Source: Methanococcoides methylutens MM1
GTDB taxonomy: Archaea > Halobacteriota > Methanosarcinia > Methanosarcinales > Methanosarcinaceae
DNA length: 64,000 nt
Assembly: GCF_000970325.1 (NCBI RefSeq)
Contig: NZ_CP009518.1
Span: 930,001 to 994,000, forward strand
Direction of reading: 5' to 3'
The notes under the pieces were generated by a model. The model had not been told where the DNA came from, ran no database searches, and worked only from the letters and a program-made list of their open reading frames with translations. Of the stretch, positions 21,365 through 55,485 are shown piece by piece. How positions within the stretch are numbered: the first letter of the stretch is position 1; every line of letters starts with the position of its first letter. The translations under genes were made by a program, and so were the position numbers.

Positions 21365-23179
21365 GTGTTCGAACGTAGATGTATTATTATTGCCGGTGAG
21401 GAAGCCGGTCCAAAGTCCAACAAGATGGGCGGTATATGGAATGTCATTGATGCGGAAGTAAAGAGTCTTGCTCAGATGCTTGAAGACGGGATCATTGAGG
21501 AGGAATCAATTCCAAGGATCTTTGTTGCATGTCCCTATTATGGATATAGTGGTTCGGACTGGAACAAGGGTCTCAATCGTATAACTGACATGAGTGAGTT
21601 CGATGAGTTCATTCCCGATGAGAACCTTTCACTTATCATCGAAAAGCTCCAGGAAAAAGGCATCGATTTGATCGTCGCATCCAAAAAGATGGAACAGGTC
21701 GAAATCATCTACCTTATGTTTAAGACCAATGATTTCTGCAGGACCATGGTTGAATACAACGGTAAACACACCTGTCTGGAAAATAAGGTAAAAGGAGAAG
21801 CCTACGATCTCATCGGATTAGACTCTCTTTCATATGAGGATATGGGTAACAGGACAGAATATACACATTACCTTAATCTTTCCTATGCCATTTCCGAATT
21901 TGTTCATAACCTTGTGGATCTCCGTAAAGAAAAAGCGATGGCCTATGAGGATGAACTTATATCTGAATTTGCCAGTTCCCTGATACCTTCATGGCATGTT
22001 TCATTGCATTGCCACGAGTTCGGTGTCTTCTATGCCATTGCAAGGCTAAAGAAGATCGGTGTTCCGATCAATTCAGTTGCAACTTATCATGCGACCATCC
22101 CCGGAAGGGTTGCAGGCCACCTTTCCATTCAGAAGATACGTGACAATGACAAAGAATGGGGTGCAGGTGTCCCGAAGAATATGGCTACTCTTGAATCATT
22201 ATCCGAATATGCAGATGTTGTAACTGCAGTTGGGGATTCTACGAAAAAAGAGATCAAGTTATTCTATGATATTGATTCTCTTATCGTGAGGAACGGTATT
22301 GATCTTGAGACCGGAGATATCAATGAACTTCTGGATAAAAAGAGTAAATGCCGGACCAAGATCCAGGAATTAACTACCGAAAAGCTTTACAAAACCCACA
22401 ATGGTTTGAAGCTTTTACCGGAGAAGATCATTCCCATATTCTCAATCTCAAGGATCGAAGTTGAAAATAAAGGCTATCCAGATCTGCTGGACTCGCTTGT
22501 TCTTCTCGACAGGATGGTGAAGATCGAAGTAGAGGCTGGTCGACTTGATGAGAATTACAGGGTAGTTTGTTTTATCGTAACAGCTCATGGCCCGAAAATC
22601 AATCCACCTGAAAATTTCCCGGTAATGCTCAATGAAGAGGTGCTTATCGGCGAGGAGAGGCGTATACAGAACATGATAGAGAGCAGAAAACTTGAATGTT
22701 CCAGGCTTTCCGGTGGTAGCAGGTATGTTTCCGCGATTCTTTATCCCCAGTGGTTATCTAAGAGCGATGGCGGTTTCAATATGAGCGTTGATGAGTTCAT
22801 GGCTGGTTGTGTTGCCGGCATATTCCCGTCCAGGTACGAACCTTTCCTGCTCACCGGGCTTGAGGCCGGGAAAGAAGCCACTCCCAGCATTGTGAGCAAG
22901 GTATGTGGTTTCAGTGATGCGCTGAAAACGGTCAAGCGTCTGGTGATGGGAATGGGTGGAGTACTGGTAGTTGATAATATCGACCAGGCCTATCTTGAAA
23001 CGATAGCAGATTATGCGCTTACCCTGGACTATTTCATTGACACTTACACTGATGATAAGACCAAATACAATTTCCTATGTCAGGAGGCTAATCTCCTTGC
23101 ACAGGACATGAACTGGCAGGAGCCTACCAGGCAGTACTATGAGATGCTTACAGGTACAAAGCTAAAAAATGAAAAATAA
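21365..23179 (+). CDS. GT3-like glycogen synthase
   Basis: 604-aa retaining glycosyltransferase with two Rossmann domains, resembling the eukaryotic-type (GT3) glycogen synthases more than bacterial GlgA. Family traits: an N-terminal NKMGGIWNVIDAE loop that binds the nucleotide-sugar, LHCHEFGVFYAIA, ATYHATIPGRVAG, then ERRIQNMIE and the donor-site E-x7-E region RYEPFLLTGLEAGKEATPS. It should add glucose from UDP- or ADP-glucose to an alpha-1,4-glucan. Start GTG 21365 follows GGGGGGT. First gene of a same-strand set of seven sugar enzymes. Confidence 0.85.
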   Translation: MFERRCIIIAGEEAGPKSNKMGGIWNVIDAEVKSLAQMLEDGIIEEESIPRIFVACPYYGYSGSDWNKGLNRITDMSEFDEFIPDENLSLIIEKLQEKGIDLIVASKKMEQVEIIYLMFKTNDFCRTMVEYNGKHTCLENKVKGEAYDLIGLDSLSYEDMGNRTEYTHYLNLSYAISEFVHNLVDLRKEKAMAYEDELISEFASSLIPSWHVSLHCHEFGVFYAIARLKKIGVPINSVATYHATIPGRVAGHLSIQKIRDNDKEWGAGVPKNMATLESLSEYADVVTAVGDSTKKEIKLFYDIDSLIVRNGIDLETGDINELLDKKSKCRTKIQELTTEKLYKTHNGLKLLPEKIIPIFSISRIEVENKGYPDLLDSLVLLDRMVKIEVEAGRLDENYRVVCFIVTAHGPKINPPENFPVMLNEEVLIGEERRIQNMIESRKLECSRLSGGSRYVSAILYPQWLSKSDGGFNMSVDEFMAGCVAGIFPSRYEPFLLTGLEAGKEATPSIVSKVCGFSDALKTVKRLVMGMGGVLVVDNIDQAYLETIADYALTLDYFIDTYTDDKTKYNFLCQEANLLAQDMNWQEPTRQYYEMLTGTKLKNEK

Positions 23180-23238: not shown

Positions 23239-24219
23239 ATGTCAGAGATACGTAAGCACTACTTTCTGGAAGAATATTGTCTGATAGCACCGGGAAGAAG
23301 CAAAAGACCTTCGGTTTTCAAAGCAGAAAAGAATGAAGGTACATCTAAAAGATGCGTCTTTTGCGCAGGGGAAGAGGACAAAACACCTCTTGCAACTGCA
23401 GTTTATAAAGACGGAAACATACTGAAGGACGAAGAGGGTTCAAGAATAAGTGGATGGGATATGCGTTGCATACCAAATCTTTATCCTGCTCTTTCTCCGG
23501 ATGCCGGTGAGGTCAGTTCCGTATCTGATACACTTCCGGGATATGGGTATCACGAAGTGATAGTTGAAACACCGTCTCATGAGAAGGTCATACCTGACTT
23601 TTCCGATGATGAGATGTCACTGCTCATGAAGGTTTACCGGGACCAGGTAGTTCACTATGAGTCTCTTGACAGGATAGAATATGTTTCACTCTTCAAGAAC
23701 TGGGGAGAAAAAGCAGGTGCATCACTGGCACACACTCATTCCCAGCTGATAGCCCTGCCATTGAGACCTCCGGTATTGGTTGAAGAGATGAAGGCAATAG
23801 AATCCCTTTCAGAATGTCCTTATTGTGAGGTCATTGAAAAAGAAAGCAACAGTGAGAGATTGATCTATGAGAACAATCATTTCATTGTCATTGCTCCTTA
23901 TTGCTCGATGATCCCATATGAGATGTGGCTACTTCCCAAGATGCACATACATCATATCTCCGAATTTGATGATGAACAGTTAGTTTCTCTTGGTAATGCA
24001 ATACGTTCTGCCCTGTCAGGCCTGTTGGATAATATCGGTGAAATACCCTACAATTACATGTTCTATCAATTGAAGGATGAGCCGGGGTATCACTTCAACT
24101 TAAAGATCCAGCCGGTTACAACTAAGGCAGCTGGTTTTGAAAAGAATACAGGCATATACATTAACACAATGCCTCCGGAAACGGCTGCAAAATATCTTCA
24201 GGGGAAGTTTGAGGATTGA
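23239..24219 (+). CDS. galT: Galactose-1-phosphate uridylyltransferase-like enzyme
   Basis: 326-aa HIT-superfamily nucleotidyltransferase. The N-terminal zinc-type site CVFCAGEEDKTP and the active-site motif AHTHSQLIALP, with the nucleophilic His between two His/Gln positions, are intact; a second half carries CPYCEV and HHISEF. Classical GalT exchanges UMP between UDP-glucose and galactose-1-phosphate. Its position between two glycogen-type glycosyltransferase genes suggests that here it may instead interconvert sugar-1-phosphate and nucleotide sugar, supplying or recovering the donor. Good ribosome binding site (GGGGAAAC preceded by GGGTTGATGG). Confidence 0.88.
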   Translation: MSEIRKHYFLEEYCLIAPGRSKRPSVFKAEKNEGTSKRCVFCAGEEDKTPLATAVYKDGNILKDEEGSRISGWDMRCIPNLYPALSPDAGEVSSVSDTLPGYGYHEVIVETPSHEKVIPDFSDDEMSLLMKVYRDQVVHYESLDRIEYVSLFKNWGEKAGASLAHTHSQLIALPLRPPVLVEEMKAIESLSECPYCEVIEKESNSERLIYENNHFIVIAPYCSMIPYEMWLLPKMHIHHISEFDDEQLVSLGNAIRSALSGLLDNIGEIPYNYMFYQLKDEPGYHFNLKIQPVTTKAAGFEKNTGIYINTMPPETAAKYLQGKFED

Positions 24220-24348: not shown

Positions 24349-25518
24349 ATGGGGAATAATTTAAAAATCGGGATGTTTTCCTGGGAAAGTCTGCACTCTG
24401 TAAAAGTGGGTGGTATAGCTCCGCACGTTTCCGAACTCGGTGAAGCGCTTGCCGAAATGGGGCATTCGGTCCACATATTTACAAGAAATTCAGGACTTGA
24501 AACTCACGAGATGGTCAATGGTGTTCATTACCACAGGGTGGATCATTCTCTTGACGGAGGCATCGTCCATCAAATGGATAGCATGTGTGATGCAATGTAC
24601 TCGAGGTTCCTTGATGTTAGTAGGGAATATGGTGATTTTGATGTATTACACGTCCATGATTGGCACCCTTTCAATGTTGTCTCAAGGATCAAGTACGAGT
24701 TTGGCATTCCTTTTTTGATGACATACCACAGTACCGAATGGGGACGTAATGGTAACGTGCATGGTAACTGGTGGGAGGCCGAAGAGATATCCCACAGGGA
24801 ATGGAAGGCAGGCTATGAGTCCACCAGGGTCATATCCACTTCCCAGCAACTTACAGACGAGATCAAGTTCCTGTACCAGATACCTCATGATAAGATCTCT
24901 ATAATTCCAAACGGGATCTTCCATGGGAAAATGAAGAAGGATGTTGATCCCGGGGAAGTAAAAAAGAGATTAGGCATTCATCCTCTTGCACCTGTTGTCC
25001 TTTTCATCGGACGCATGAGTTACCAGAAGGGTCCTGATATGCTTGTTGAGGCTGTTCCTGAAGTAAAAGGTCATCGCTGGGACACTCAATTTGTTTTCAT
25101 AGGTGAAGGCGAGATGCGTCCTCACTGTGAATCAATTGCAAGTTCCGGTAAGTGTACCGAATGCTGCCATTTCCTTGGTTATGTGGATGATGAGACTGCT
25201 AAGGACTGGTTGAATGCATGTGATATCATGTGTATCCCCAGCAGGAATGAACCTTTCGGAATAGTTGTCCTTGAGGGTTGGGATGCTGAGAGGACCATCG
25301 TCGCAACAGATGCTGTACAGATCATCGATAATTTTGTCGATGGCATTCTTGTCTATAAGAACCCGGGATCGATCGCATGGGGTATAAAATATGCTCTTGA
25401 TGACCTTTCCAATGGCAGCATGAGGGAAGCAGGCAAAGAACTTATCGATACCAAATATAACTGGCACAAGATCGCAGAACAAACAAGTGAAGCGTACCTT
25501 GATGTTCTCGGAGAGTAA
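24349..25518 (+). CDS. GT4 glycosyltransferase (starch/glycogen synthase-like)
   Basis: 389-aa GT-B enzyme. The N-terminal SVKVGGIAPHVSELGEAL loop resembles the GGL/GGV donor loop; LHVHDWHPF and TYHSTEW follow; the C-terminal half has VLFIGRMSYQKGPD and the E-x7-E motif NEPFGIVVLEGWD. Retaining enzyme that extends a glucan or makes a glucosylated product from a nucleotide sugar. Lies within the polysaccharide set, 129 bases after the galT-like gene with its own AT-rich promoter-like spacer (ATATATTAAATTTATTTAATA). Acceptor unknown. Confidence 0.88.
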   Translation: MGNNLKIGMFSWESLHSVKVGGIAPHVSELGEALAEMGHSVHIFTRNSGLETHEMVNGVHYHRVDHSLDGGIVHQMDSMCDAMYSRFLDVSREYGDFDVLHVHDWHPFNVVSRIKYEFGIPFLMTYHSTEWGRNGNVHGNWWEAEEISHREWKAGYESTRVISTSQQLTDEIKFLYQIPHDKISIIPNGIFHGKMKKDVDPGEVKKRLGIHPLAPVVLFIGRMSYQKGPDMLVEAVPEVKGHRWDTQFVFIGEGEMRPHCESIASSGKCTECCHFLGYVDDETAKDWLNACDIMCIPSRNEPFGIVVLEGWDAERTIVATDAVQIIDNFVDGILVYKNPGSIAWGIKYALDDLSNGSMREAGKELIDTKYNWHKIAEQTSEAYLDVLGE

Positions 25519-25589: not shown

Positions 25590-26720
25590 ATGCAGTCAGT
25601 TTGCATTTGTTCGGAAGTTCACCTTCCCTGTGTACTGAAATGGTACTGGCCGTCCGAAGGTTATCGTTCTCCGCAGTTCGATACCTATTTTGACCAGCCC
25701 CAGATATTTTCTGCTCTGGAAAGAAGCCTGCCTCAGATGCTTAAAACGAACGAAGCTTTGCTGGATTCCATCGATAATGGTGCGAAATATACCTTTGACA
25801 TATCCGGTATATTCCTGGACCAGTGCAAATGGAATCCTGCTATTATAGAATCATTCCAGGAACTAAAGGACAGGGGGGCAGGTTTTGCATCTTCCCCTTA
25901 TTATCATTCCGTGTCATCTCTTTTCCCCGAACATAAGGAGTTCAGGGAACAGGTTTCCATGCATCGAAAGAAGATCAGGGAGATATTTGATATCAATCCT
26001 GGTACTTTCATCAATTCGGAGCTGATACTGACAAAGGAGCTCAGCACTCTCCTTAAAGAGATGAAGTTCAAATGCCTGATCTCAGAAGGCTCGGATAACC
26101 TGTTGTACGGAAATGATCCAAACCATGTCTATGATAATCATATTCCAACTCTGCTGCGTCATATATCCCTGAGCGAGGATATTGAATTACGTTTTTCAGA
26201 CCAGAAATGGATCAGCTATCCTCTGATAGCAGATAAGTTCGCCTCATGGATAGCTAACATGGAAGGGGATGTGACCACATTGCATTTCAAATATAGCTCT
26301 ATCCTTTCCCATCAGCAAAGCAGAAGCGATATACTTCAGTTCCTGATGGACCTTCCTGAAAGTTTAGAGAGATATGGGATCTCCATGGTAACGCCTGAAG
26401 AAGCATTGAAGAGCTTCAAGACAAAAGAACTTCCTTCCATCATGAACAAATCAACCTCTCGCTACGGGATGCACAATCTGGTGGGCAACCATCCCCAGCA
26501 TCTGTATATGCATGAGCTTGTAGGTATCGGAAAGATCCTTGAGTCAATAAAGGATTCTCCTGAATACGATATGATGAACTGCATCTACCGGTACCTGCAA
26601 CAAAGTGAGATATTGCTGGAAATGGGGTCTGACAACAACAATCATGGCTATGAAAAGGCAGTCAATACCTTCTCTGTTCTTTCGGACTTTAAGCGTGCAT
26701 TACTGGAGGTGAAGGCATGA
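25590..26720 (+). CDS. Degenerate GH57-family protein, probably lacking hydrolase activity
   Basis: 376-aa paralog of the next gene, aligning over its length. GH57 regions are recognisable but altered: region 1 HQP is HLP (11-13), YHS at 105-107 is kept, the nucleophile Glu is kept (E144 in NSELIL), but region 4, where the neighbour has MDYETFGEH with the acid/base Asp, reads FKYSSILSH, replacing D by K234 and both Glu by Ser. A glycosidase without its acid/base residue is unlikely to hydrolyse. It may bind glucan or regulate its neighbour. Its stop overlaps the start of the intact copy by four bases, implying coupled translation, perhaps a heteromer. Confidence 0.82.
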   Translation: MQSVCICSEVHLPCVLKWYWPSEGYRSPQFDTYFDQPQIFSALERSLPQMLKTNEALLDSIDNGAKYTFDISGIFLDQCKWNPAIIESFQELKDRGAGFASSPYYHSVSSLFPEHKEFREQVSMHRKKIREIFDINPGTFINSELILTKELSTLLKEMKFKCLISEGSDNLLYGNDPNHVYDNHIPTLLRHISLSEDIELRFSDQKWISYPLIADKFASWIANMEGDVTTLHFKYSSILSHQQSRSDILQFLMDLPESLERYGISMVTPEEALKSFKTKELPSIMNKSTSRYGMHNLVGNHPQHLYMHELVGIGKILESIKDSPEYDMMNCIYRYLQQSEILLEMGSDNNNHGYEKAVNTFSVLSDFKRALLEVKA

Positions 26721-27916
26721 GATCCGTTTGTATGTACTTCCAGCTACATCAGCCATATCGCCTGAAGTGGTTCTGGCCTGATGACTCGAAAGGATTTGAA
26801 AGGTATTTCGATGTTGCAATAAACAGGAACATCTTTGAGAAGGTAGCCAGCAAATGCTACGTTCCGGCAACAACCCTCCTGGCAGAGCTCGTTGAACAGT
26901 ATGGGGGCGACTTCAAGTTCAGTGTCTCAATAACCGGCACTCTCCTGAGTCAGTGTGAGAAATGGAACCCTGATGTACTGGACATCTTCCAGCGGCTTGC
27001 TGACTCAAAATGTGTGGAATTCCTCGATGAGACCAATTACCATTCCCTTGCAGGTCTTTTTGATAGCAAGGACGAGTTCAGGGAAGAGGTAAAGACTCAT
27101 CATGATATCACTTCAGAACTGCTTGGTGTAAAGCCACAGGTCTTCAGGAACACGGAACTCCTTTTCAATAATAGTGTAGCAGAGGCAGTTTCATCCATGG
27201 GTTATAAGGCTATACTTACAGAGGGTGTTGACCAGCTTCTGCAATCACGCTCACCAAATCATGTCTATAAGGCAAAGGATTGCGATATAGCTGTCCTTAT
27301 GAGGAACTACAAAATGAGTGATGACATTGGTTATCGTTTCTCGGCCAGATGGTGGGAAGAGTATCCCCTGACCGCTGATAAGTGGGCCTGCTGGGCATCC
27401 AGAGAGCAAGGTGATTGCCTGAACATCTTCATGGATTACGAGACCTTCGGTGAACACCAGTGGGCAGATACGGGTATCTTTGATTTCATGAGGGCCCTGC
27501 CGGATGAGGTTCTTAGCAAGGACATTGAGTTCAACACTCCATCCGAAGTAGTTGACAGATATGGACCGGTAGGCGAGATCGATGTTGGTGACTTTAACAC
27601 GATCTCCTGGGCAGATATGGAGCGAGATACAAGTGCATGGCTTGGCAACGATATGCAGCGCAGGTGCTTCGAAGAGGCAAAGAGGCTTGGACCTTATGTG
27701 AAGCGAACAAAAGACCCGGAGCTTATCAACATATGGAAACATCTCCTCACATCCGATCACTATTACTATATGAGTACAAAATGGCTGGGTGACGGTGATG
27801 TTCATTCATATTTCAGCATCCATAATTCACCCTACGATGCAGCAATCAATTTCATGGCAGTGTTCCTGGATTTCAAGTCATGTGTTTTCAGGAAGCTGGC
27901 TGAAATAGGTGAGTAA
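26717..27916 (+). CDS. GH57 alpha-amylase-type glycoside hydrolase
   Basis: 399-aa retaining alpha-glucan hydrolase or transferase with a (beta/alpha)7 barrel. All conserved regions are present: HQPYR at 11-15, TNYHSL near 107-111, the nucleophile E147 in RNTELLFNN, the acid/base D240 in MDYETFGEHQW, and the C-terminal helical part. Length fits the alpha-amylase or 4-alpha-glucanotransferase-like cytoplasmic members. No signal peptide, so it should act on intracellular glycogen. Overlaps the degenerate copy upstream by ATGA and ends before a strong hairpin. Confidence 0.9.
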   Translation: MRSVCMYFQLHQPYRLKWFWPDDSKGFERYFDVAINRNIFEKVASKCYVPATTLLAELVEQYGGDFKFSVSITGTLLSQCEKWNPDVLDIFQRLADSKCVEFLDETNYHSLAGLFDSKDEFREEVKTHHDITSELLGVKPQVFRNTELLFNNSVAEAVSSMGYKAILTEGVDQLLQSRSPNHVYKAKDCDIAVLMRNYKMSDDIGYRFSARWWEEYPLTADKWACWASREQGDCLNIFMDYETFGEHQWADTGIFDFMRALPDEVLSKDIEFNTPSEVVDRYGPVGEIDVGDFNTISWADMERDTSAWLGNDMQRRCFEEAKRLGPYVKRTKDPELINIWKHLLTSDHYYYMSTKWLGDGDVHSYFSIHNSPYDAAINFMAVFLDFKSCVFRKLAEIGE

Positions 27917-28075: not shown

Positions 28076-30052
28076 GTGAGATTTCTGATCCGGCATCCAA
28101 ATGCTATACTCGGAAACGACAGATTGCTTGTATCAATGGGTGAGAAAGGGAACATCCTGGGTTTTTTCTATCCCCGAAGGGATGGAGAACAGCATGTCAG
28201 CGATTCGGTTGCGTGTCTTTACACCGATGGCAGGCTTATGTGGTTCGATTCTCCCGAATGGAATTCAGAACAAACGGTTGACGATGGAACTAACATCATC
28301 AATACTCATCTATCCCATTCTTCCGGTATAGATGTATCTATTCAGGATATTGTTCATAATGAAATGCCGGTCCTTATTCGAAAGTATGAGATCACTTCTA
28401 AGGAACATCTTAACGGTAAGTTCTATTACTATTCCAATTTCCAGGCCGGTGGAACTTCCCGGATGAACTCCGCTTATTTTGATGTGAATCAGGATATGCT
28501 TGTCCACTACATGCATGACTTTTACATTGGTGTAGCAACTGATCCTGCATTTGATGAATGGCAGGTTGGCAAGACCAACGATAAAGGCTGGGCTAAAAGT
28601 GCCAGGATAGATATGGAGGACGGAAAGCTTCAGAAAAATATGGAGGAGATCGGTGACATAGACGGCACCCTCGGTTTGGACCTTGCTCTTATGCCAGGGG
28701 AATCGCTAACTATCACAGTTCTTATCGGAATTGCTTCGGGAAGACAAGCTGTATGCGATATGACGCAAGGTGTTCTGTCACATCCCCTGTCTGAAATTAT
28801 CCGGGATTCCGAGAACACCACAGCAGAATGGCTCTCAAAAAAGAGACCTCTGGAACTATCTGTACTTGATCTTGATCCTGTTATCAGGAATGATGTCATA
28901 AGGCTTTATGATCGCTCTTTACTTTCCCTGAACTTAATGTCTGATCCCAATGAAGGTGCGATCCTTGCTGCCCCGGAGTTCGATCCTGCATTTGAGATGT
29001 GTGGGGGGTATGGTTTTTGCTGGAACAGGGATGCTGTGGAAGCTGTTCTTGCCCTTATGAAAGCCGGTTATCCAGAATATGCTGAGAAGTTCTTTACATG
29101 GTGTAAAAGAACACAGATGTCCGATGGGTCCTGGTTCCAGAGATACTGGCTTGATGGGACGGAAGCTCCCTCATGGGGTAATTTTGACGATTCCACTCAG
29201 CTTGATGAGACCGGTTCCACGCTTTTTACAATTGATCGTTACTACCGGGAACTGGAAGATCCCGACAGTGTCGAGTTCCTGGATTCCATTCGGGAAACTG
29301 TATGGAAGGGTGCAGAATACCTGATGGGCAGGACCGAACAGGGCCTTCACGATCCCTGCAGGTGCCTATGGGAATCAGAAAAAGGAATATTCCCCTATAC
29401 GAATGCTGCTATATATGCCGGTCTGAAGGGTGCTGCCCATATGGCCAGAGAGGGCGACGACAGTAATGGCAGTAACCGTGCTGAAATGTGGTCCGAGAGA
29501 GCTGATCGGATACGGGGGATGACCATTGATAAGCTATGGCTTAAGGAAGGCTATTTCTCCCGTGGTATTATTGACAATGATGTCCGGAGTTCCGTGGATT
29601 CGAGCATTATCGGCACGTTTGTTCCGTTTGGTCTTCTTTCAGTGGATGATCCCGATGAAAAGTCCATGATCCTCTCAATGATCGGGCATATTGAAAGAGC
29701 TCTCAGTGTTCCTGTCAATGGCTACTACGGGATCAAACGATATGAAAATGACAGCTACATTGGTGGCAACCCATGGATCGTGACAACACTATGGCTTTCC
29801 CGATCCCTCCTCGAACTTGCTGTTTCACTGGATGAAAAGAATGAGGAATATGACAGTCTTGTGAACAGGTCACTTGAATATATCAAATGGGTAATGAGGA
29901 GTGCAACCAGCTCCGGTATCCTATCCGAGCAGGCGGATAAGAATACCGGTAAAGCCGCATGGGCAAGACCTTTGAGCTGGAGTTGTGCCCTGTTCATCGA
30001 AAATATCCTGCTTCTGGACAGATTGAAAGACAGTAGTTCAAAAGATGACTGA
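28076..30052 (+). CDS. Glucoamylase (glycoside hydrolase family 15)
   Basis: 658-aa inverting exo-glucosidase that releases glucose from alpha-glucan ends. The N-terminal super-beta-sandwich (to about residue 260) is typical of archaeal and bacterial GH15, and the (alpha/alpha)6 barrel follows, with GYGFCWNRDAVEAVLAL, a TQLDETGSTLF segment near the catalytic acid, and a WARPLSWSCALF segment near the C-terminus. No signal peptide, so probably intracellular. Start GTG 28076 lies close to the TATA box. Its stop is 54 bases before the debranching enzyme gene, so the two are likely co-transcribed. Confidence 0.88.
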   Translation: MRFLIRHPNAILGNDRLLVSMGEKGNILGFFYPRRDGEQHVSDSVACLYTDGRLMWFDSPEWNSEQTVDDGTNIINTHLSHSSGIDVSIQDIVHNEMPVLIRKYEITSKEHLNGKFYYYSNFQAGGTSRMNSAYFDVNQDMLVHYMHDFYIGVATDPAFDEWQVGKTNDKGWAKSARIDMEDGKLQKNMEEIGDIDGTLGLDLALMPGESLTITVLIGIASGRQAVCDMTQGVLSHPLSEIIRDSENTTAEWLSKKRPLELSVLDLDPVIRNDVIRLYDRSLLSLNLMSDPNEGAILAAPEFDPAFEMCGGYGFCWNRDAVEAVLALMKAGYPEYAEKFFTWCKRTQMSDGSWFQRYWLDGTEAPSWGNFDDSTQLDETGSTLFTIDRYYRELEDPDSVEFLDSIRETVWKGAEYLMGRTEQGLHDPCRCLWESEKGIFPYTNAAIYAGLKGAAHMAREGDDSNGSNRAEMWSERADRIRGMTIDKLWLKEGYFSRGIIDNDVRSSVDSSIIGTFVPFGLLSVDDPDEKSMILSMIGHIERALSVPVNGYYGIKRYENDSYIGGNPWIVTTLWLSRSLLELAVSLDEKNEEYDSLVNRSLEYIKWVMRSATSSGILSEQADKNTGKAAWARPLSWSCALFIENILLLDRLKDSSSKDD

Positions 30053-30106: not shown

Positions 30107-32122
30107 ATGTCACCATCATCTCTACCATACAATAATGAATTTGACCATGCAGCCGCTATCTCGAGGGAATGGCTGGTCACAAATGGAATTGGAGGCTATG
30201 CATCATCCACAGTTATTGGTGAGAACTCACGAAAGTATCATGGTCTTCTAGTAGCTTCTGCAAATCCTCCGGTCGACCGAAGAGTGATGCTTTCATCCCT
30301 GGATGAAGAGATCGTCATTGAAGGTGAAGTATTTCGGCTTGCAGTGCACAGCTATCCCGATACTCTCTATCCTTCGGGCTTTCAATATCTCGAACGTTTT
30401 TCTGCCTCTCCTCTGCCAACCTTTGAGTATCGGGTCGGGAATGTAAAGCTGATCAAGACCGTTTTCATGGTCTATGGTAAGAACACTACGATTGTGAAGT
30501 ACAAGCTCTTCAATACCGGCAAACAGGACATCGTTCTTCGAATACTGCCTCTTGTTGCTAGCCGGGGTTTTCATGAGCTCAGGAAAGCTGGAGATGCCAG
30601 TTTCACCGAAGTTAGCATTGATACAGGCGCTGATATTGGATCTAATCTAGTAGAAGATGATGTTCTTCTGCAACTGCGTTCAAATATGAAATTCAAGTGT
30701 GACTCACATTGGTACTACAATTTCCAATATGAGATGGAACGCGAACGAGGGGAAGCCTATCAGGAAGACCTCTATAACCCGGGTTATTTTGAAGAGCAGA
30801 TAACGGAGAATGTTTGTGAATTCTATGTTGTGGTTTCGGATGATCTTCCTGATGAAATGAAATCAGAGGATATTTTTGATCCCGTTTCTGCTCTTGAATT
30901 GATTAATTTTGAGTATGAAAAGGCCCTTTTACGACAGAAAGATCTTCTGGATAACTGTAGTTTCAATGATAATCTCGCAAAGAAGCTTTTTGTTGCTGCC
31001 GATACTTTCATTGTGCAACGCAGTTCCACCAATTCGCATTCCATTATTGCAGGCTATCACTGGTTTGCTGACTGGGGAAGGGATGCCATGATTTCGCTAC
31101 CAGGATTGACCCTTGTTACCGGAAGGTTCGGTGATGCAAAAGAGATTATCAGGACCTTTTCGGAGAACTGTTCAGATGGACTTATACCCAATCGTTTCTC
31201 AGACGATGGCATCTCTGCTCCTGATCACAACACAGTTGATGCTTCATTGTGGTTCATTCATTCTGTTGGGAGATATTATTCCTATACGAAGGACCTCAGA
31301 ACTGTCCGGGAAATGTGGGGAACTGTCGTATCGATAATCCATAGCTACAAAAATGGTACCTCATATGGGATTCGGATGGATGCTGATGGATTGATTGAGC
31401 ACAAAGGTCAGCTTACATGGATGGATGCAAAGATCGGCGATCAGGAGATCACTCCACGGGCAGGGAAAGCATGTGAGATCAATGCGTTGTGGTACAATGC
31501 TCTTTGTAATGCCATCCGGCTTGGGGAGTTTATTGGCGAAGACACAGCAGAGCTCCATGGGATAGCCGAATTAGCAAAGAGTAATTTCACCGATGTTTTC
31601 TGGAATCAGGAAGACAAGTGTCTCTATGACTGTGTATCCGTAAACGATGATGGATCAGCCACAAAGGATGCAGCGGTCAGGCCGAACCAGATATTTGCAG
31701 TTTCACTTCCGTATACAATGCTTGATACTGATAAGGAAAGATTGGTCGTTGAAAAGGTGAAAGAGGATCTACTGACTCCTTATGGCTTGAGATCATTGTC
31801 TCCGAAAGACAGTCGCTATACCGGAAGATATTATGGTGATCGTGATACTCGGGACCGTGCTTATCATAACGGAACGGTCTGGGCATGGTTGTTGGGCCCA
31901 TTCGTTACCGCATACGTAAAGGTTAATGGGCATTCCTCATTAAGTCTTGAATATTGCAGACGGTTGTTAATTAATTTTGAAGAACATCTTGATGAGGCTG
32001 GAATTGATTCCATTTCCGAGATATTCGATGGCGATTCTCCGCACAGGCCGCGAGGTTGTATCGCACAGGCATGGAGTGTTGCTGAGATACTGCGAGCCTA
32101 TATCGAGGATATCAACTCTTAA
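30107..32122 (+). CDS. Glycogen debranching enzyme (amylo-alpha-1,6-glucosidase, GDE_C type)
   Basis: 671-aa enzyme removing alpha-1,6 branch glucose. The N-terminal domain begins EWLVTNGIGGYASST, the family hallmark, and the C-terminal (alpha/alpha)6 domain carries AGYHWFADWGRDAMISLPGL, DASLWFI, a LTWMDAKIG stretch and GKACEINALWYNAL, with the late RAYHNGTVWAWLLGPF. Completes a degradative set with the GH57 and GH15 enzymes. The start ATG 30107 follows AAGAAGGGATCAGT. Ends the same-strand polysaccharide cluster; the next genes run the other way. Confidence 0.93.
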   Translation: MSPSSLPYNNEFDHAAAISREWLVTNGIGGYASSTVIGENSRKYHGLLVASANPPVDRRVMLSSLDEEIVIEGEVFRLAVHSYPDTLYPSGFQYLERFSASPLPTFEYRVGNVKLIKTVFMVYGKNTTIVKYKLFNTGKQDIVLRILPLVASRGFHELRKAGDASFTEVSIDTGADIGSNLVEDDVLLQLRSNMKFKCDSHWYYNFQYEMERERGEAYQEDLYNPGYFEEQITENVCEFYVVVSDDLPDEMKSEDIFDPVSALELINFEYEKALLRQKDLLDNCSFNDNLAKKLFVAADTFIVQRSSTNSHSIIAGYHWFADWGRDAMISLPGLTLVTGRFGDAKEIIRTFSENCSDGLIPNRFSDDGISAPDHNTVDASLWFIHSVGRYYSYTKDLRTVREMWGTVVSIIHSYKNGTSYGIRMDADGLIEHKGQLTWMDAKIGDQEITPRAGKACEINALWYNALCNAIRLGEFIGEDTAELHGIAELAKSNFTDVFWNQEDKCLYDCVSVNDDGSATKDAAVRPNQIFAVSLPYTMLDTDKERLVVEKVKEDLLTPYGLRSLSPKDSRYTGRYYGDRDTRDRAYHNGTVWAWLLGPFVTAYVKVNGHSSLSLEYCRRLLINFEEHLDEAGIDSISEIFDGDSPHRPRGCIAQAWSVAEILRAYIEDINS

Positions 32123-46792: not shown

Positions 46793-49198
46793 TCATCCCA
46801 TATTTTTTTCAGTTTCCAGAACCTTCATCGATATCTTCATCACAGAATCCGGATTCAACGAGATCGAGTCAATACCTTCTTTCACGAGGAATTCAGCAAA
46901 TTCGGGGAAATCACTGGGAGCCTGCCCACATATTCCGCTGTGTTTCCCATTTCTCTTTGCTCCCTGTACTGCCATGGAAACGATCTTCTTCACAGCTTCA
47001 TCCCTTTCATCAAAGGAGGAAGCCAGTATCTCCGAATCCCTGTCCACACCAAGGGTCAGCTGGGTGAGGTCATTGGAGCCTATGGAAAAGCCATCGAAGT
47101 ATTTGCTGAATTCATCTATCAGCAGGACATTGCTTGGTATCTCGCACATGACATACACCTGCAGGCCGTTCTCTCCTCTTTTCAGACCGTTCTTTTCCAT
47201 CTCTGCGATCACTTTTTCCGCTTCTTCCACACGCCTGCAGAAAGGTATCATGAGGATGAGGTTCGTCAGTCCCATCTCGTCCCTGACCTTCTTCATGGCT
47301 TTGCATTCAAGTGCGAATCCTTCGCGGTAGCGTTCATCATAATAGCGCGATGCTCCCCTAAAACCTATCATCGGGTTGCTTTCCTCGAACTCGAAGTACT
47401 CACCGCCGATCAGGCTGGCATACTCGTTAGACTTAAAGTCGCTCATGCGTACCACCACGGGTTTCGGATAGAATGAAGCTACAATGGTTGCCACTCCCTG
47501 GGAAAGTTTCTCCACGAAGTAGTCTTCCTTATTCTCATATCCGGAGGTGAGCTTTTCGATCTCCTTGAGAACACTTTCGTCCTCCACCTTTTCAGGATGT
47601 ACCAGTGCCATGGGATGAACTTTGATGTAGCTTGTGATGATGAACTCAAGTCGTGCAAGTCCTATGCCGTCGTTAGGTATCATTGAAAGGCCAAAGGCCT
47701 CTTCCGGATTCCCAAGGTTCATCATCATCTCGGTCTTCGTATCTCCAAGGTCCTTCAGGTCAACAGTTTCCACATGGAAAGGCAGTATCCCTTCATAGAC
47801 CCTGCCGATATCACCTTCAGCACAGCTCAATGTTACGTCCATGCCGTTCTTCAGATTTTCAGTTGCATCCTCTGCACCCACAACGGCCGGAACTCCAAGC
47901 TCACGGCTTACGATAGCTGCATGGCATGTTCTTCCGCCTTTGTTCGTGATGATGGCAGCAGCACGTTTCATTACAGGTTCCCAGTCAGGTGTTGTGGTAT
48001 CAGCTACCAGTATCTCTCCCTGTTTGAAAGATGGCAGTTTGGAGACATCATCGATCACATGCACCTTTCCGGCTGCGATCTTGTCACCCACACTCCTACC
48101 TTTTACAAGAACGTTAGATCGCTCGTCAAGGAAGTAGGTCTCAAGGACATCCTTCCTCTTCCTTGACTGTACGGTCTCAGGTCTTGCCTGTACAATGAAA
48201 AGCTCGCCGGTATTACCGTCCTTCGCCCATTCGATATCCATGGGCACAGCCTTGCCTTTCTTTATGGAATAATGGTCCTCGATGGTAGCAGCGTACTTCG
48301 CAAGCTGGAGGATCTCGTCATCGTTGATACAGAACTTCCTCCGCTCTGCAAGTGAGACTTCCACGTTGCGAGTAAGCACGCGTGAATCCCCGCGTCCGTA
48401 GATCATCTTAATGGCTTTGCTCCCCATCTTTTTCTTGATTATTGGTTTATAACCTTCTTTCAGGGTAGGTTTGAAGACGTAGAACTCATCAGGATTGACA
48501 ACACCCTGCACGACATTCTCACCCAGACCATAGGCTCCTGTGATGAAAACAACATCCTCGAATCCGGATTCGGTGTCGATCGTGAAGATCACGCCGCTGG
48601 ATGCAAGGTCTGAACGTACCATCTTCATAACGCCGATTGATAGTCCGACTTTGAAGTGGTCGAACTTGTGGTGCACACGGTAGGAGATCGCCCTGTCCGT
48701 GAAAAGAGAGGCAAAGCATCGGTTACATGCATCCTTCAGGGAGTGGTAGCCGTGGATATTCAGGTATGTTTCCTGCTGACCTGCAAATGAGGCATCCGGA
48801 AGGTCCTCTGCTGTTGCGGAACTACGAACTGCCACATCGGTCTCTGAACCGTATTCCTCGCTCAGTTTGTCGTAGGCTTCCTTTATTTCTTCCCAGAGGT
48901 CGTCCGGTATTCCTGCATCAAGGACTATGCTCCTTGCCTTCTTTCCTCTTTCTGCAAGGTCAGCAACATCCTTTGTATCCAGTCCTTCCAGTGTATCTTT
49001 AAGATCCTGTAGAACGCCTGCAGATTCCAGGACATGCCAGTAAGCTTCTGCTGTGATCGCGAATCCGTTTGGTATGCTAATATCCTTCTCTGTCAGTTCC
49101 CGGTACATCTCGCCAAGGGAGGCATTCTTACCTCCGACCAAAGGAATGTCTTCTATACTTATCTCTTTGAACCATCGAATGTATTTGCTATCTCCCAT
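46793..49198 (-). CDS. ppsA: Phosphoenolpyruvate synthase
   Basis: 801-aa enzyme making PEP from pyruvate and ATP for gluconeogenesis. Order of parts: N-terminal ATP-grasp domain (VGGKNASLGEMYREL, SSATAEDLPDASFAGQQE), central phosphohistidine domain with GGRTCHAAIVSRELGVPAVVGA, and C-terminal PEP-binding barrel with MIGFRGASRYY, MIPFCRRVEEA and GICGQAPSD. Full family length. In methanogens it leads from acetyl-CoA-derived pyruvate toward sugars, and so supports the glycogen genes at 21-32 kb. Single gene, convergent with metX. Confidence 0.97.
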   Translation of the reverse strand: MGDSKYIRWFKEISIEDIPLVGGKNASLGEMYRELTEKDISIPNGFAITAEAYWHVLESAGVLQDLKDTLEGLDTKDVADLAERGKKARSIVLDAGIPDDLWEEIKEAYDKLSEEYGSETDVAVRSSATAEDLPDASFAGQQETYLNIHGYHSLKDACNRCFASLFTDRAISYRVHHKFDHFKVGLSIGVMKMVRSDLASSGVIFTIDTESGFEDVVFITGAYGLGENVVQGVVNPDEFYVFKPTLKEGYKPIIKKKMGSKAIKMIYGRGDSRVLTRNVEVSLAERRKFCINDDEILQLAKYAATIEDHYSIKKGKAVPMDIEWAKDGNTGELFIVQARPETVQSRKRKDVLETYFLDERSNVLVKGRSVGDKIAAGKVHVIDDVSKLPSFKQGEILVADTTTPDWEPVMKRAAAIITNKGGRTCHAAIVSRELGVPAVVGAEDATENLKNGMDVTLSCAEGDIGRVYEGILPFHVETVDLKDLGDTKTEMMMNLGNPEEAFGLSMIPNDGIGLARLEFIITSYIKVHPMALVHPEKVEDESVLKEIEKLTSGYENKEDYFVEKLSQGVATIVASFYPKPVVVRMSDFKSNEYASLIGGEYFEFEESNPMIGFRGASRYYDERYREGFALECKAMKKVRDEMGLTNLILMIPFCRRVEEAEKVIAEMEKNGLKRGENGLQVYVMCEIPSNVLLIDEFSKYFDGFSIGSNDLTQLTLGVDRDSEILASSFDERDEAVKKIVSMAVQGAKRNGKHSGICGQAPSDFPEFAEFLVKEGIDSISLNPDSVMKISMKVLETEKNMG

Positions 49199-50288: not shown

Positions 50289-52736
50289 TTATTGCTCTGC
50301 CCTTTCCCTGTTAGCTGCCCTGATCTCCCTTATTCTTCTTACTGCTATCTCTGTGAGGAAGAGCAGTAATGCTGCAATAAGGAAGTACAGTTTCTGGCTG
50401 ACCGGCTGCTGAACACTTTTAAGTGAATTCGCTTTGGCATCTGTAAGCAGCAGTGCGAGGGCTTCTTTCTCGGTGTAGGTCTTACCACCGTTTGCCTTGA
50501 TGAGCACAGGAAGATCCTCATTCATGCCAACATCACGGTACTCGATGGCATAGTTCACAGCGATCGGATAGCCTGAAACATCATGCAGTCCAATGTTCTT
50601 AGGTTCGATTGTGGTCTCATAGGTGTTCTTTCCTGTGACTGCAAGCTCAAGTGTTTCTCCCTTGTACTTCAGTTTGGGAACACCTTCATCGTAGCGGGTG
50701 ATGTAGAGTGTTGCAGTGCTTCCGAACCATGTGTCATCTCCTTCCACAACAGTTCCTTCCTCTACCTGCGGGTTACCTATTGCCCAGTTCATGGTTGAGG
50801 ATATCAGCTTTGAATTGTTGCCGGAGTACATCTGTGAGCTCCATGTTGCCTGTCCACCTTTACCGTTGTCGGTTGTAATGGCTGCAACCCTGCCAAGTCC
50901 ATATCTCCATGTGGTGATGATCGGCTTACCTGTGGCGGTCACAACGATCCTGTCGGCACCTGCTTTTGGTGTGACATCATTGTAGCCGGTGATGTTGCCA
51001 TCAACTTCCAGGTTACGTGTGATGAAGTGGTTCGGGTTGTATTCGATAAGCGGGAATGATGTCATGATCGGTTCATCGTCCTCGGGCTCATCAGGGATGT
51101 CAAGGTCTTCGAACTCAAGGTTTGCACGTTCACCTTTCTGTACCGGGAAGTAAATTCCCTCCACGCTTTCCATGAGGTCTTCTGCATAGATGTTGCCGAA
51201 CTGGTCTCTCTGAGATGGTGCTGATGACTTTACATGGACATAGTAGAACTGTATATCTCCATCGCTGATCTCATCTGCGACAACAAGAGCTTCTTCATAG
51301 GACTGCTCTATACCACCATCTGAGATGATTATTATATCGAGCTCTCCGACTTCGTTCTCAAGCCATTCCTGTGCTATGAGAAGACCCTGGTCAAGGGATG
51401 TTTCGCTGGTGGATCCCGGTGTAAGTGCAGATATATCTTCTTCCAGTTTCAGGATATTGGCCTGGCTACCCAGGTAAACAAGTCCTCCTGAGACATCGAT
51501 ACCTTCGCTACCAAAGGCGATGACGCCTGCGTAGGCATCTCTCAGGTTCTCGTCCTCAAGCACGAAGATCGCATTTCCGAGGATATCAGAAAGGGACTCG
51601 TGGTGGAAAGTACTCTGGGACACATCCAGTACAAGGACAATGCTCCTGCCACCTTTCCAGTCAGTTGGCTTTGAGAGCACCGGAAGAAGATCTTCGAAGG
51701 AAGAGTTCAGGTAATTGCCCTGGTCAAAGGAGGTCTCTCCTCCAACAACAACAAGCCCGTTACCATCAGCTACGAATTCCTTCAGGAGCTCTACATCAGT
51801 TTCCGAGAGTGTCCTGATGTTCTGGTTGTCGAGGACTATTGCCTTCTTATCATCAATGTTTGTGAATTCATCTGTGTTGGATACAGAGTACAGGTTGTAC
51901 AGCACATTGCCAAGAGGTGCTGAACTATCGCTGGTCAGCATTTTGATATTTGGCTTTGGTACAACATAGATCGCCTTGTAGAACTGGTTGTTAATGCTAT
52001 CCTTATCGGATGTAAGTGGTGTAAGTGTGACGCTCAGCTCCTTTTCACCGAGCTTTTTGAATGTATAAGGTACACGTATGGTCCTTGTGCGTGCGCTTTG
52101 TGTAAATGTACCACTCCTGACAAGAGTATCGCCAGCATAAACCTCGAAACTGTATCGTATTTCTTCCTCTCCTGCCTGTGAAACAAGCACATCGAACTGG
52201 TTCTCGTTTCCAATAACCACTGTCTTGTCGCCCAGTATCTGCACGCTGATGTCGTTTTCTTCGAGTTCAGGTTCGACTGAATAAACGGTGGTCCCGACCT
52301 CCTCAGAGAACTGGAGCGCTTCTTCAAGGTCTTTTCCAAAATTGCTGTTACCGTCTGTTACCAGCACGATCTGATTATCGCCGCTGGAATATTGCTCAAC
52401 GGCATCCCCCAGGGAAGTGCTTTCCCCTGTGAGCCTTATCATTGTTGTCGGGGTATTTGCTGTAAGTGACTCATAGACATTATCACCTACTCCTTCCTTG
52501 AACAGCTGCATACTGCTGGTCTCATCGGAGATGATCACTATCTGGGGTGTATCATCACTGGTGACCTCGCTGACAAGTGAGAATGGGGATGCCAGTGCTA
52601 CAACGAGTAATGAAAGGACCACGATGCGTGAAAGTATCAGTGGCTTTCTTGCACCTTTTTTGATCAAATAGAGTCCACCGACGATGATCGGTAGGATAAG
52701 TAGCAGTACCAGTGGTTCTTCAAAAGTATACATCAT
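50289..52736 (-). CDS. Membrane protein with von Willebrand factor A domain and glutamine-amidotransferase-like fold
   Basis: 815-aa protein anchored by two N-terminal helices (about 10-50) and one C-terminal helix (about 775-800). Two ligand-binding regions are visible: an early VWA-like IIISDETSSMQLF segment and a second VLVLDVSQSTFHHESL MIDAS-like motif at about 365-380, with a GLVVVGGETSFDQG stretch between them that belongs to the amidotransferase-like fold of this family. Related to bacterial BatB/YegP-type aerotolerance membrane proteins. Last gene of the MoxR-DUF58-VWA operon, overlapping the preceding gene by four bases. Confidence 0.85.
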   Translation of the reverse strand: MMYTFEEPLVLLLILPIIVGGLYLIKKGARKPLILSRIVVLSLLVVALASPFSLVSEVTSDDTPQIVIISDETSSMQLFKEGVGDNVYESLTANTPTTMIRLTGESTSLGDAVEQYSSGDNQIVLVTDGNSNFGKDLEEALQFSEEVGTTVYSVEPELEENDISVQILGDKTVVIGNENQFDVLVSQAGEEEIRYSFEVYAGDTLVRSGTFTQSARTRTIRVPYTFKKLGEKELSVTLTPLTSDKDSINNQFYKAIYVVPKPNIKMLTSDSSAPLGNVLYNLYSVSNTDEFTNIDDKKAIVLDNQNIRTLSETDVELLKEFVADGNGLVVVGGETSFDQGNYLNSSFEDLLPVLSKPTDWKGGRSIVLVLDVSQSTFHHESLSDILGNAIFVLEDENLRDAYAGVIAFGSEGIDVSGGLVYLGSQANILKLEEDISALTPGSTSETSLDQGLLIAQEWLENEVGELDIIIISDGGIEQSYEEALVVADEISDGDIQFYYVHVKSSAPSQRDQFGNIYAEDLMESVEGIYFPVQKGERANLEFEDLDIPDEPEDDEPIMTSFPLIEYNPNHFITRNLEVDGNITGYNDVTPKAGADRIVVTATGKPIITTWRYGLGRVAAITTDNGKGGQATWSSQMYSGNNSKLISSTMNWAIGNPQVEEGTVVEGDDTWFGSTATLYITRYDEGVPKLKYKGETLELAVTGKNTYETTIEPKNIGLHDVSGYPIAVNYAIEYRDVGMNEDLPVLIKANGGKTYTEKEALALLLTDAKANSLKSVQQPVSQKLYFLIAALLLFLTEIAVRRIREIRAANRERAEQ

Positions 52737-54604
52737 AGCTCACCCCTGCTTCTGATTATAAGTATCTCAACGATCACCAGCAGCATGGCAAGTATGATGA
52801 GATAGATATCAATGTAATTCTTGGCAGTATAGGTGCTTTCCCTGACTATCTGGGAGCCATCCTGTGCTGTGGCACGTTCAAGTACACCGGATGCATCGAT
52901 GGTGGTGTCGGATTCCATGTCATCATAGAGGTTTACTGCGATGTCCTTTCCTGAAACCTCGTATATGCCGACTTCATCATAGAGCAGTCTGCTGGTTGTC
53001 ACGGTTGTTGAAGGTGTGGAAACGTCCATCTCACTTGGAAGTGCTGAAATTGCACCTGTCTGGAGGTTGTAGTCACCTATATCCCCCGCTCCGCCAAGCC
53101 ATGCGATCAACTTTGCCCAGAGGACTGGATATTCAGGAAGGTTGTGGAAATTGTTCCATGCATCTTCGCCAAGCTCATCGCTCAGGCCAAGATACATCAC
53201 CGTTCCATCACCCACGCTCCAGTAAGCAAGCATCGGGATCTCTGAATCGGTATTTACAAGTGAGACCGCATCTGCCCGGAGGGTAGCATTGAGATAAGTG
53301 TAGACTGCGATATCCTCGAACCTGACATCTTCTGTCAGCCTTGTGTCCTGCACAACCTTCAGTGTTTCCCCGTTGTTGCTTTCCATAGTCGCAATTGGTT
53401 TCACAGGAAGGATCTTGAGCAGGTCAAAGTTCGCAGCTGCCGGGTCAAGTGCAGAAGATGCGAGGAATAAAGCTTCTCCGCCGTTGTTTATAAATGTGTC
53501 AAGTGTAGCAACTTCTTCTGTTGTCAGTGCCCTTTGCTGTGTATCGATCACTATAAGCTTGTAGTCACTGAGGTCTGCAGGCACATTATTGGACTGGGTT
53601 GCCCTTATGTTCGGAAGTAATGAAAGTGAAACTGCAGCCGGTGAGTTCTTCACATCGGTTACAAGTAGCAATTCGTTCTGAATGTTCGAAGGGATGGATA
53701 TGTAAGCCGTGTTGTCGGTCATGAGGCTGTCATCCCTGGTTATCCTGAGTTGAGTAACTCCTGGTCCGAGATTTTCTACCTTGAACTGACTGGTCGAAAA
53801 TGGTCCCACGTCAAGTGTGATGCGTTTCTTTGTATCGCTTCCGGCAGCATCTATTTCAATATTGACGTTCTGTGTTGTTTCCATGTAGTTCTTGACAACA
53901 CAGTTGTAAGTGTAACTATTCTCCTCAGCCTCAAGCCAGCCCTGGATTATTCCCACATTATCAGTGGTTGTTCCTACCCTGACGAAACTAACCTTCATTC
54001 CATAGGATTCAGCAAGCCTCTTTGCAGCTACAGGGTCTTCTCCTTCCCAGTTGGTGAAATCCGAGATCACAATGATCCTGCCACCTTCGTTGGAGAGCAT
54101 CCGCATGGCGTTCGTTATGGAAGTTGAAAGGTCTGCTACGGTACCCTTTCCTGACATTCCGTCAAGTGCATCTTTCGTTGCTGAGGATCCGGCAGCTTCA
54201 AGGACGGTTACCGGAATGTTCTGTGCAAGAATTATGCTGTTCTTCTTGCTGACATAGGTCTTTGCGATATCCGTAGCACTATCAAACCTTCCGTCGGTGT
54301 TCATGCTCGCAGAAGCATCGATCACAAAGACAGTATGCTCACCGCTCAGGCTTTCCTCGGATGTGTAGAACGGACCCGCCACTGCAACGGATATCAGTAT
54401 AAGCACCAGTAACTGTGCAAGGAAGATGGGGTCCCGGATTAGCCTTCTAAGTGTGGCGAATCGTTTTTTCTTCTGTTCTGCCCGCATCAGGAACATCAGT
54501 GAAGGAATTTTGATCTGAAGGGGCTTTGGTCTTAACAGGTACAGTATGATGAGTGGGATAACACTTGCAAGAGCTGCAAGTCCAAGTGGATTGTCATAAG
54601 GCAT
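52733..54604 (-). CDS. BatA-type membrane protein with VWA domain
   Basis: 623-aa protein. The N-terminus (GLAALASVIPLIILYLLRPK) is the standard BatA membrane anchor with the LLRPKP ending, followed by a second helix (about 65-83), a VWA domain with MIDAS DASASMNTDGRF, and a C-terminal extracytoplasmic beta domain before a last helix (about 600-620). The stop overlaps the next gene start (ATGA) and its start overlaps the DUF58 stop by one base. Proposed role: part of a MoxR-dependent assembly or envelope-chaperone complex; no direct proof in archaea. Confidence 0.87.
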   Translation of the reverse strand: MPYDNPLGLAALASVIPLIILYLLRPKPLQIKIPSLMFLMRAEQKKKRFATLRRLIRDPIFLAQLLVLILISVAVAGPFYTSEESLSGEHTVFVIDASASMNTDGRFDSATDIAKTYVSKKNSIILAQNIPVTVLEAAGSSATKDALDGMSGKGTVADLSTSITNAMRMLSNEGGRIIVISDFTNWEGEDPVAAKRLAESYGMKVSFVRVGTTTDNVGIIQGWLEAEENSYTYNCVVKNYMETTQNVNIEIDAAGSDTKKRITLDVGPFSTSQFKVENLGPGVTQLRITRDDSLMTDNTAYISIPSNIQNELLLVTDVKNSPAAVSLSLLPNIRATQSNNVPADLSDYKLIVIDTQQRALTTEEVATLDTFINNGGEALFLASSALDPAAANFDLLKILPVKPIATMESNNGETLKVVQDTRLTEDVRFEDIAVYTYLNATLRADAVSLVNTDSEIPMLAYWSVGDGTVMYLGLSDELGEDAWNNFHNLPEYPVLWAKLIAWLGGAGDIGDYNLQTGAISALPSEMDVSTPSTTVTTSRLLYDEVGIYEVSGKDIAVNLYDDMESDTTIDASGVLERATAQDGSQIVRESTYTAKNYIDIYLIILAMLLVIVEILIIRSRGEL

Positions 54605-55485
54605 CAGACCTTCCTCCCGTTAATCGTGTGGAAGAACGCATCGAATACCGGAGTATCGGTTGTGAATGTAAAGAAATCGGCGCCAACGTGATCGCAGATG
54701 TTCCTTATTCCATCGATGTGTGCCTGAAGCTCTTCCTGGTATTTGTCCTTGAAATTATTGCTCAGGTAGGTCTTCAGTTCATCATCCGTCTCAAGGTCAA
54801 AGAGCTTCACATGACCGTGCATGGAAAGATCGCTCTCGGACGGGTCCAGTACCTGTATGAGCATTAGGTCGTGATGTGATAATCGGTAGATTGCTGATTC
54901 AATAGAGCTGATGTCTTCCATGAAATCTGAAATAATGACAACTAGGGATCGTGAATGAATGACCTTCTCGTACTGCTCCACACATTTGTTCAGTTCGGTC
55001 TTACCTTCAAGCTCGACATCTGCCATCCTGTCGATATCCCTGAGAAGGTATCGCCTGCCCCTGTGTGTTTGTGAGATGGTTATATCCTCGGCGTATGTGG
55101 ATATCCCGAACTTGTCGTTATCTTTTGTGACAAGGTATGCAAAACCGGAGGCAAGCATTGCTCCATATTCGTATTTTGTGAACTCGCCGCTAGTATAGTC
55201 CATGCTATTACTGGCGTCTAGCAGTATGTGGGTAGTAACGGATTTATCCTCTTCGAACTCCCTTACATAGAGCTTCTCGGACCTTGCATATACGTTCCAG
55301 TCGATGGATTTGATATCGTCTCCCGGATGATATTCAACATATCCGAGGGTATCAAGACCGCGGCCGCTATGGGTTGAACGCCTGCTTCCGGCATAGGCAC
55401 TGGATACTCGCTTTCTTACCATGAAGGTAAAGCGGTCCAGCTGGCGGAAGAAATCCACATCGATCCTGTGTTTCCTGTCACTCAT
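54604..55485 (-). CDS. DUF58 domain protein (VWA-like)
   Basis: 293-aa soluble protein. The family signature YHPGDDIKSIDWNVYARSEK is complete, followed by REFEEDKSV and the VWA-like MIDAS DASNSMDYTS. DUF58 proteins sit between MoxR ATPases and VWA membrane proteins throughout bacteria and archaea, presumably as their client or adaptor. The order moxR-DUF58-BatA-VWA here is the canonical one. 74 bases separate it from the moxR stop. Confidence 0.92.
   Translation of the reverse strand: MSDRKHRIDVDFFRQLDRFTFMVRKRVSSAYAGSRRSTHSGRGLDTLGYVEYHPGDDIKSIDWNVYARSEKLYVREFEEDKSVTTHILLDASNSMDYTSGEFTKYEYGAMLASGFAYLVTKDNDKFGISTYAEDITISQTHRGRRYLLRDIDRMADVELEGKTELNKCVEQYEKVIHSRSLVVIISDFMEDISSIESAIYRLSHHDLMLIQVLDPSESDLSMHGHVKLFDLETDDELKTYLSNNFKDKYQEELQAHIDGIRNICDHVGADFFTFTTDTPVFDAFFHTINGRKV

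Follow-up and report, generated by a model that had tools for sequence, protein, structure and literature searches.

Family GH57 includes alpha-amylase-like (AAMY-like) proteins, a group named by Janecek and Blesak in 2011 (via PMC6037648) and counted in 2018 at 126 sequences, 60 of them archaeal (PMC6037648). The accessible part of that survey defines the group by sequence alone and does not mention a constant pairing with an active paralog. GH57 proteins devoid of catalytic residues have been catalogued, but no role is assigned to them in the open-licence papers searched. In family GH13, the plant isoamylase couple ISA1/ISA2 associates an active enzyme of storage polysaccharide metabolism with an old non-catalytic paralog kept by selection, and ISA2 affects the polymer beyond catalysis (accessible part of PMC12510319). 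Among GH57 alpha-amylases, loss of the Sulfolobus acidocaldarius enzyme lowers glycogen (accessible part of PMC11046441). A coupled inactive twin is not reported for this amylase or for that of Methanocaldococcus jannaschii in the accessible parts of the literature. According to the accessible part of the same 2024 review, an alpha-amylase or an alpha-amylase-like GH57 is retained in every archaeon that lacks a classical branching enzyme, and the question is raised whether such a GH57 is the missing branching enzyme (PMC11046441).

We analyzed a stretch of 64,000 nucleotides (the window) of Methanococcoides methylutens MM1, whose genome is a single contig of 2,394,636 bases. Two GH57 genes follow each other on the plus strand. 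Gene A (25590-26720, stop codon included) encodes a putative alpha-amylase-like pseudoenzyme of 376 residues. Gene B (26717-27916) encodes a 399-residue protein of the alpha-amylase group, as judged below, with intact catalytic motifs. The start of B lies inside the stop of A, in an ATGA overlap (26717-26720, plus strand). Both proteins match the GH57 profile PF03065, with 179 bits for A and 276 bits for B against a curated cut-off of 21.2, and GH57 occurs nowhere else in the 2.39 Mb genome. No NCBIfam model is matched by either. A and B are 31% identical over a nearly full-length BLASTP alignment (E 1e-57), and their paralogy is far above chance level.

The pair is located in a glycogen cluster transcribed from the plus strand. 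A GT3-type glycogen synthase (21365-23179, PF05693) is followed by a galactose-1-phosphate uridylyltransferase-like (GalT-like) gene that scores below NCBIfam cut-offs (23239-24219), a GT4-type glycosyltransferase (24349-25518), A and B. Then come a GH15 glucoamylase-like gene (28076-30052) and an archaeal glycogen debranching enzyme (30107-32122; GDE_N, GDE_C, TIGR01561). The same stretch also carries, on the minus strand, a pyruvate phosphate dikinase/phosphoenolpyruvate synthase-type gene (46793-49198). A membrane-associated cluster, also on the minus strand (50289-55485), consists of overlapping genes whose domains are VWA, BatA, glutamine-amidotransferase-like and DUF7408.

B contains H11-Q12-P13, the nucleophile Glu147 (codon 27155-27157), the proton donor Asp240 (codon 27434-27436), Glu242 and Glu246. 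Glu147 and Asp240 correspond to positions 15 and 20 of the published GH57 sequence logo (accessible part of PMC6037648). At the aligned places, A has H11-L12-P13, Glu144 (codon 26019-26021), Lys234 (codon 26289-26291), Ser236 and Ser240. The first-pass annotation had described two GH57 paralogs overlapping by ATGA and had named these residues; the overlap and the paralogy are borne out by the reading frames, the profile matches and the identity, and the residues are confirmed in both proteins. Further losses are visible in A. A serine faces Glu105 of B, region 4 has mostly disappeared, with Tyr235 and His241 remaining, and region 5 is devoid of the two tyrosines at its end. Region 2 stands in our residue comparison where we take it to be.

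The glutamate nucleophile and the aspartate donor of B are present in all orthologs readable at these columns (91/91 for Glu147, 89/89 for Asp240). The accessible part of PMC6037648 gives, for the alpha-amylase group, Glu or Gln at logo position 1, Arg or Glu at 12, Thr at 23 and Tyr-Tyr at 35-36. B has Gln9, Arg144, Thr243 and Tyr350-Tyr351 at these positions, region 5 having been placed by its Tyr-Tyr end. In contrast, the same source shows Leu at position 23 and Phe followed by a non-aromatic residue at 35-36 in GH57 branching enzymes. The logo residues of B are shared with GH57 alpha-amylases such as those of M. jannaschii and S. acidocaldarius. By this logo, B is most likely an enzyme that belongs with the alpha-amylases rather than with the classical branching enzymes.

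AlphaFold2 models were obtained from alignments of 51 of 57 A rows and 44 of 52 B rows, window included. Their mean pLDDT is 87.1 for A and 80.8 for B. Both models match GH57 structures over their full length, with the seven-stranded barrel and the helical bundle; the match of A reaches a Z of 30 over 348 residues. The top structural matches of A and of B (the latter with Foldseek) include GH57 branching enzymes. The branching enzymes of Thermus (3p0b/1ufa), Pyrococcus (5wu7) and Thermococcus (3n8t) have the fold in common with A and B but their chains are longer (509-550 residues). Sequence searches against solved structures returned no match for A or B singly or for the B profile, and just three chance-level rows for the A profile.

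The couple is conserved across the family of the window. A is matched in 94 of the 111 family genomes, and in 91 of these 94 it adjoins B. The couple was not seen in the other three (G001, G002 and G100), each 60-76% complete. In 89 of the 91 loci, the A stop and the B start share the same 4-base overlap; the exceptions are spaced by +13, on a short contig, and by +2. In 90 of these pairs A is readable at both catalytic columns, and in the last one it is cut by the contig end. A larger set of 127 loci, in which many genomes are counted twice, contains A in 126, and B comes after A in all of them. In these 126 loci, the synthases and GalT are variably placed before the pair, inverted or outside the stretch, while A-B stays. 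In two loci, B has an unusual frame, either from draft error or from real damage: in L036 (a G036-type locus) its coding sequence falls into two frames, and in L082 (G098) it is a long odd frame.

Both A and B are missing in 17 of the 111 genomes. Sixteen of these have no debranching gene either and the seventeenth (G104) has it only as a 32-residue fragment. The genomes without A-B include five of the eight of genus g9, which we take from the literature to be Methanohalophilus. In that genus, glycogen genes occur in only some species (accessible part of PMC6491703). GT3 was not matched in seven genomes carrying A-B, some of them incomplete (G028, G029, G047, G064, G071, G072 and G097). Thus, the tightest set consists of A-B and the debranching enzyme. 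Loci L045 and L044 illustrate this arrangement (G028 and G029, the latter taken as Methanohalobium): A-B and the debranching gene occur in both, and the GT3 synthase was not found in either genome.

Profile searches, run on 185 genomes at the level of the order and 392 at that of the phylum, found the couple in three families: that of the window, f2 (six genomes) and f3 (two genomes, one taken as ANME-2). In f2 and f3, B is just after A, without the 4-base overlap. A fourth family, f4, has the B type only in its six matching genomes, and matches beyond these families are nearly all single-copy. A tree was built from 79 chosen rows, leaving out the catalytic columns and near-duplicate outgroups. 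All A copies form one clade (support 100/100) with a stem of 1.1 changes per site. A separate clade (100/97) gathers B from the three families. A stands beside B in this tree, which holds no other GH57 specificities. One row, L091_A, is long and of odd composition. One old duplication explains the couple and gave rise to A.

A evolves under purifying selection. In three genera, its median dN/dS is 0.083, 0.088 and 0.076, only slightly higher than that of B (0.066, 0.061 and 0.050). These values come from pairs with dS between 0.05 and 1.5, that is 47 of 55 in g1 (all 11 genomes), 63 of 120 in g13 (16 chosen genomes) and 14 of 66 in g10 (12 chosen genomes). Internal stops are absent from the 90 A rows. 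In 30 columns, A has a residue that reaches at least 95% conservation and is unlike the majority residue of B, and another 35 columns show the same conservation in the two proteins (87 A and 88 B rows; L031, L036, L084, L094 and short rows left out). A is therefore, like ISA2, an anciently conserved paralog, in one clade and with a dN/dS of about 0.08, and it is apparently non-catalytic.

Nine motif residues are invariant in B (Gln12, Glu105, Glu147, Asp240, Glu242, Gly245, Glu246, His247 and Trp249). Among the 90 family A orthologs, three keep one of them, 83 keep two and four keep three, so that six to eight are gone in every copy. In the sister families, A has retained three or four of the nine. 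In comparison, single-copy relatives have eight or nine in 17 of 18 cases, the eighteenth (L149) being a degenerate second copy. The loss extends beyond the motifs: 15 of 25 B-invariant columns in the conserved regions are lost in A against 64 of 135 other B-invariant columns, a difference that is not significant (p 0.28). Conserved regions are therefore not lost preferentially and the divergence of A is general.

The explanation that we prefer, with about an even chance of being right, is that A would be an old pseudoenzyme issued from tandem duplication of the ancestor of B and would serve B as a non-catalytic partner in intracellular glycogen metabolism. Translation of the two genes may be coupled through the ATGA overlap, so that A and B would be made together; conservation of this overlap argues for matched synthesis of the two proteins. 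A is predicted to keep the barrel-plus-helical-bundle fold around a dismantled active site and has probably lost catalysis. Persistence of the fold and the columns conserved specifically in A argue for a binding role, and A might bind glucan, B, or both, possibly in a physical complex with B. It could then place B on the polymer or tune its choice of chains, as is thought for ISA2 with ISA1. The joint absence of A-B and the debranching gene argues for a role in glycogen metabolism.

A partnership with B is favored by the one to three motif residues kept in all 90 A copies against eight or nine in nearly all single-copy relatives, by the adjacency in 91 of 94 genomes, the overlap in 89 of 91 loci and the order in 126 of 126. 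It is also favored by the single A clade, free of stops and with median dN/dS of 0.08-0.09, by the 30 A-specific columns together with the confident model of A (pLDDT 87, Z 30), by the joint absence in 17 of 111 genomes, and by the ISA2 precedent (accessible part of PMC12510319). The likeness with ISA1/ISA2 has its limits, since the latter belongs to GH13, is concerned with alpha-1,6 hydrolysis and is a demonstrated complex, whereas a complex of A and B is putative. AAMY-like GH57 proteins are already known, and A differs from the accessible published description of that group in being always beside B. We did not find in print, among open-licence papers, a conserved coupled GH57 enzyme-pseudoenzyme pair, nor a paper naming GH57 together with a pseudoenzyme. 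As the active twin is a fixed companion across a methanogen family, the role of A can be directly tested by co-expression.

It is possible, although clearly less probable, that A is non-catalytic without having B as its partner. It would bind glucan or regulate by itself, or with GH15 or the synthases, and its overlap with B would reflect only the site of duplication and shared expression. Branch rates point in this direction. Over 53 loci and 101 branches, the partial covariation given the third gene is 0.63 between A and GH15 and 0.39 between A and B, so that rate covariation does not designate B as the partner of A and even disfavors it. Moreover, GH15 comes next after B in 115 of 126 loci. 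The 4-base overlap may also be left over from the tandem duplication and from operon compactness, although f2 and f3 do without it; such an origin would weaken the case for B, as does the general divergence of A. On the other hand, A is never apart from B in the 126 loci that hold it, and the exact overlap is kept across genera despite the shifting gene order around the pair. These two observations speak against this alternative.

The nucleophile column leads to another, unlikely, explanation, in which A would still be an enzyme but of another reaction. A nucleophile without the aspartate could work on donors with a good leaving group, such as a sugar phosphate or a nucleotide sugar, or an alternative acid could be used. 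Glu is found in 86 of 90 A copies, which is beyond the need of a mere scaffold and weakens the partner explanation; the strong constraint and the A-specific columns also fit an enzyme. Glu and Asp are both present in six family copies, and A of f2 combines HQP with both residues. However, the other four of the 90 have Gln as nucleophile (three from genus g12, one from g13), and the two f3 copies have Asp at that column. The acid/base column varies freely, with 43 Asn, 35 Lys, seven Asp, four Arg and one Ser, and most motif residues are gone in every family copy, which speaks against this explanation.

Altogether, 84 of the 90 A copies are devoid of Glu, Asp or both, as in the AAMY-like group, the window copy through Lys234; one copy combines Gln with Asp. 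The seven family orthologs with Asp at the acid/base column come from six loci of genus g11 (G065-G070; G069 taken as Methanomethylovorans) and from G071 (taken as Methanosalsum natronophilum). Asp is also found in all eight A copies of the two sister families, and the tree requires four or more transitions between Asp and another residue. The acid/base substitution is therefore not the conserved signature of A. As most other motif residues are still missing, the Asp-bearing copies do not look like restored enzymes by sequence. Judged by the alignments, the constant mark of A is the dismantling of several regions rather than a single Asp-to-Lys change. The first-pass annotation had viewed A as a pseudoenzyme kept for glucan binding or for regulating its partner in a heteromer, and had suggested verifying in orthologs that both copies and the same substitutions persist. 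The conservation of the pair, the constraint on A, its pseudoenzyme type and its tie to B stand; the acid/base loss is not universal and the substitution varies. Of the contrary evidence considered there, orthologs with regained catalytic residues exist as far as the Asp is concerned, although by sequence they do not look like restored enzymes, and free decay of A is not seen.

A slowly decaying relic is very improbable: the sister-family copies are separated from A by about 2.2 times the distance that separates them from B, and the dN/dS of A rises to 0.25 in one bog/fen Methanosarcina pair with a broken GT3, but the frame is open in 90 of 90 rows and the median dN/dS of 0.076-0.088 is far below 1.

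The genome of the window encodes a debranching enzyme as well as a glycogen synthase, and has no PF00343 phosphorylase, no GH77 and no GH13. GH13 is absent from the 11 genomes of its genus and occurs in 31 of the 111 family genomes. With no GH13 and no other GH57, the A-B locus is the sole candidate if a GH13 or GH57 enzyme branches the glycogen of this organism. The couple bears on the branching question raised in the accessible part of the 2024 review (PMC11046441). A and B might form a two-subunit GH57 branching enzyme, in which B would cut an alpha-1,4 chain and A would hold the acceptor for transfer to O6, a proposal that we consider rather improbable.

The relation of A to the GT3 synthase was also considered. 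Loci with GT3 (77) and loci where it is missing or broken (9) do not differ in rate (86 of 90 loci usable; p 0.63 for A, 0.91 for B and 0.32 for A/B), and a link of A to GT3 was rejected on this test. In loci L089 and L088 (G089 and G090, taken as Methanosarcina from a fen and a bog), GT3 is fragmented with several stops while A and B are open. For this pair, dN/dS is 0.252 for A versus 0.106 for B, the A value being the highest of 31 close Methanosarcina pairs. The second-highest (0.215) belongs to a pair that includes G097, a genome without GT3 match. A link between the raised dN/dS of A and a broken or missing GT3 is suggestive only.

Finally, L149 (G314:C9), the degenerate second GH57 copy of a distant relative in the phylum, has Gly at the nucleophile column and Asn at the acid/base column. 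It falls outside the A clade, and L150 sits on a different contig of that genome.
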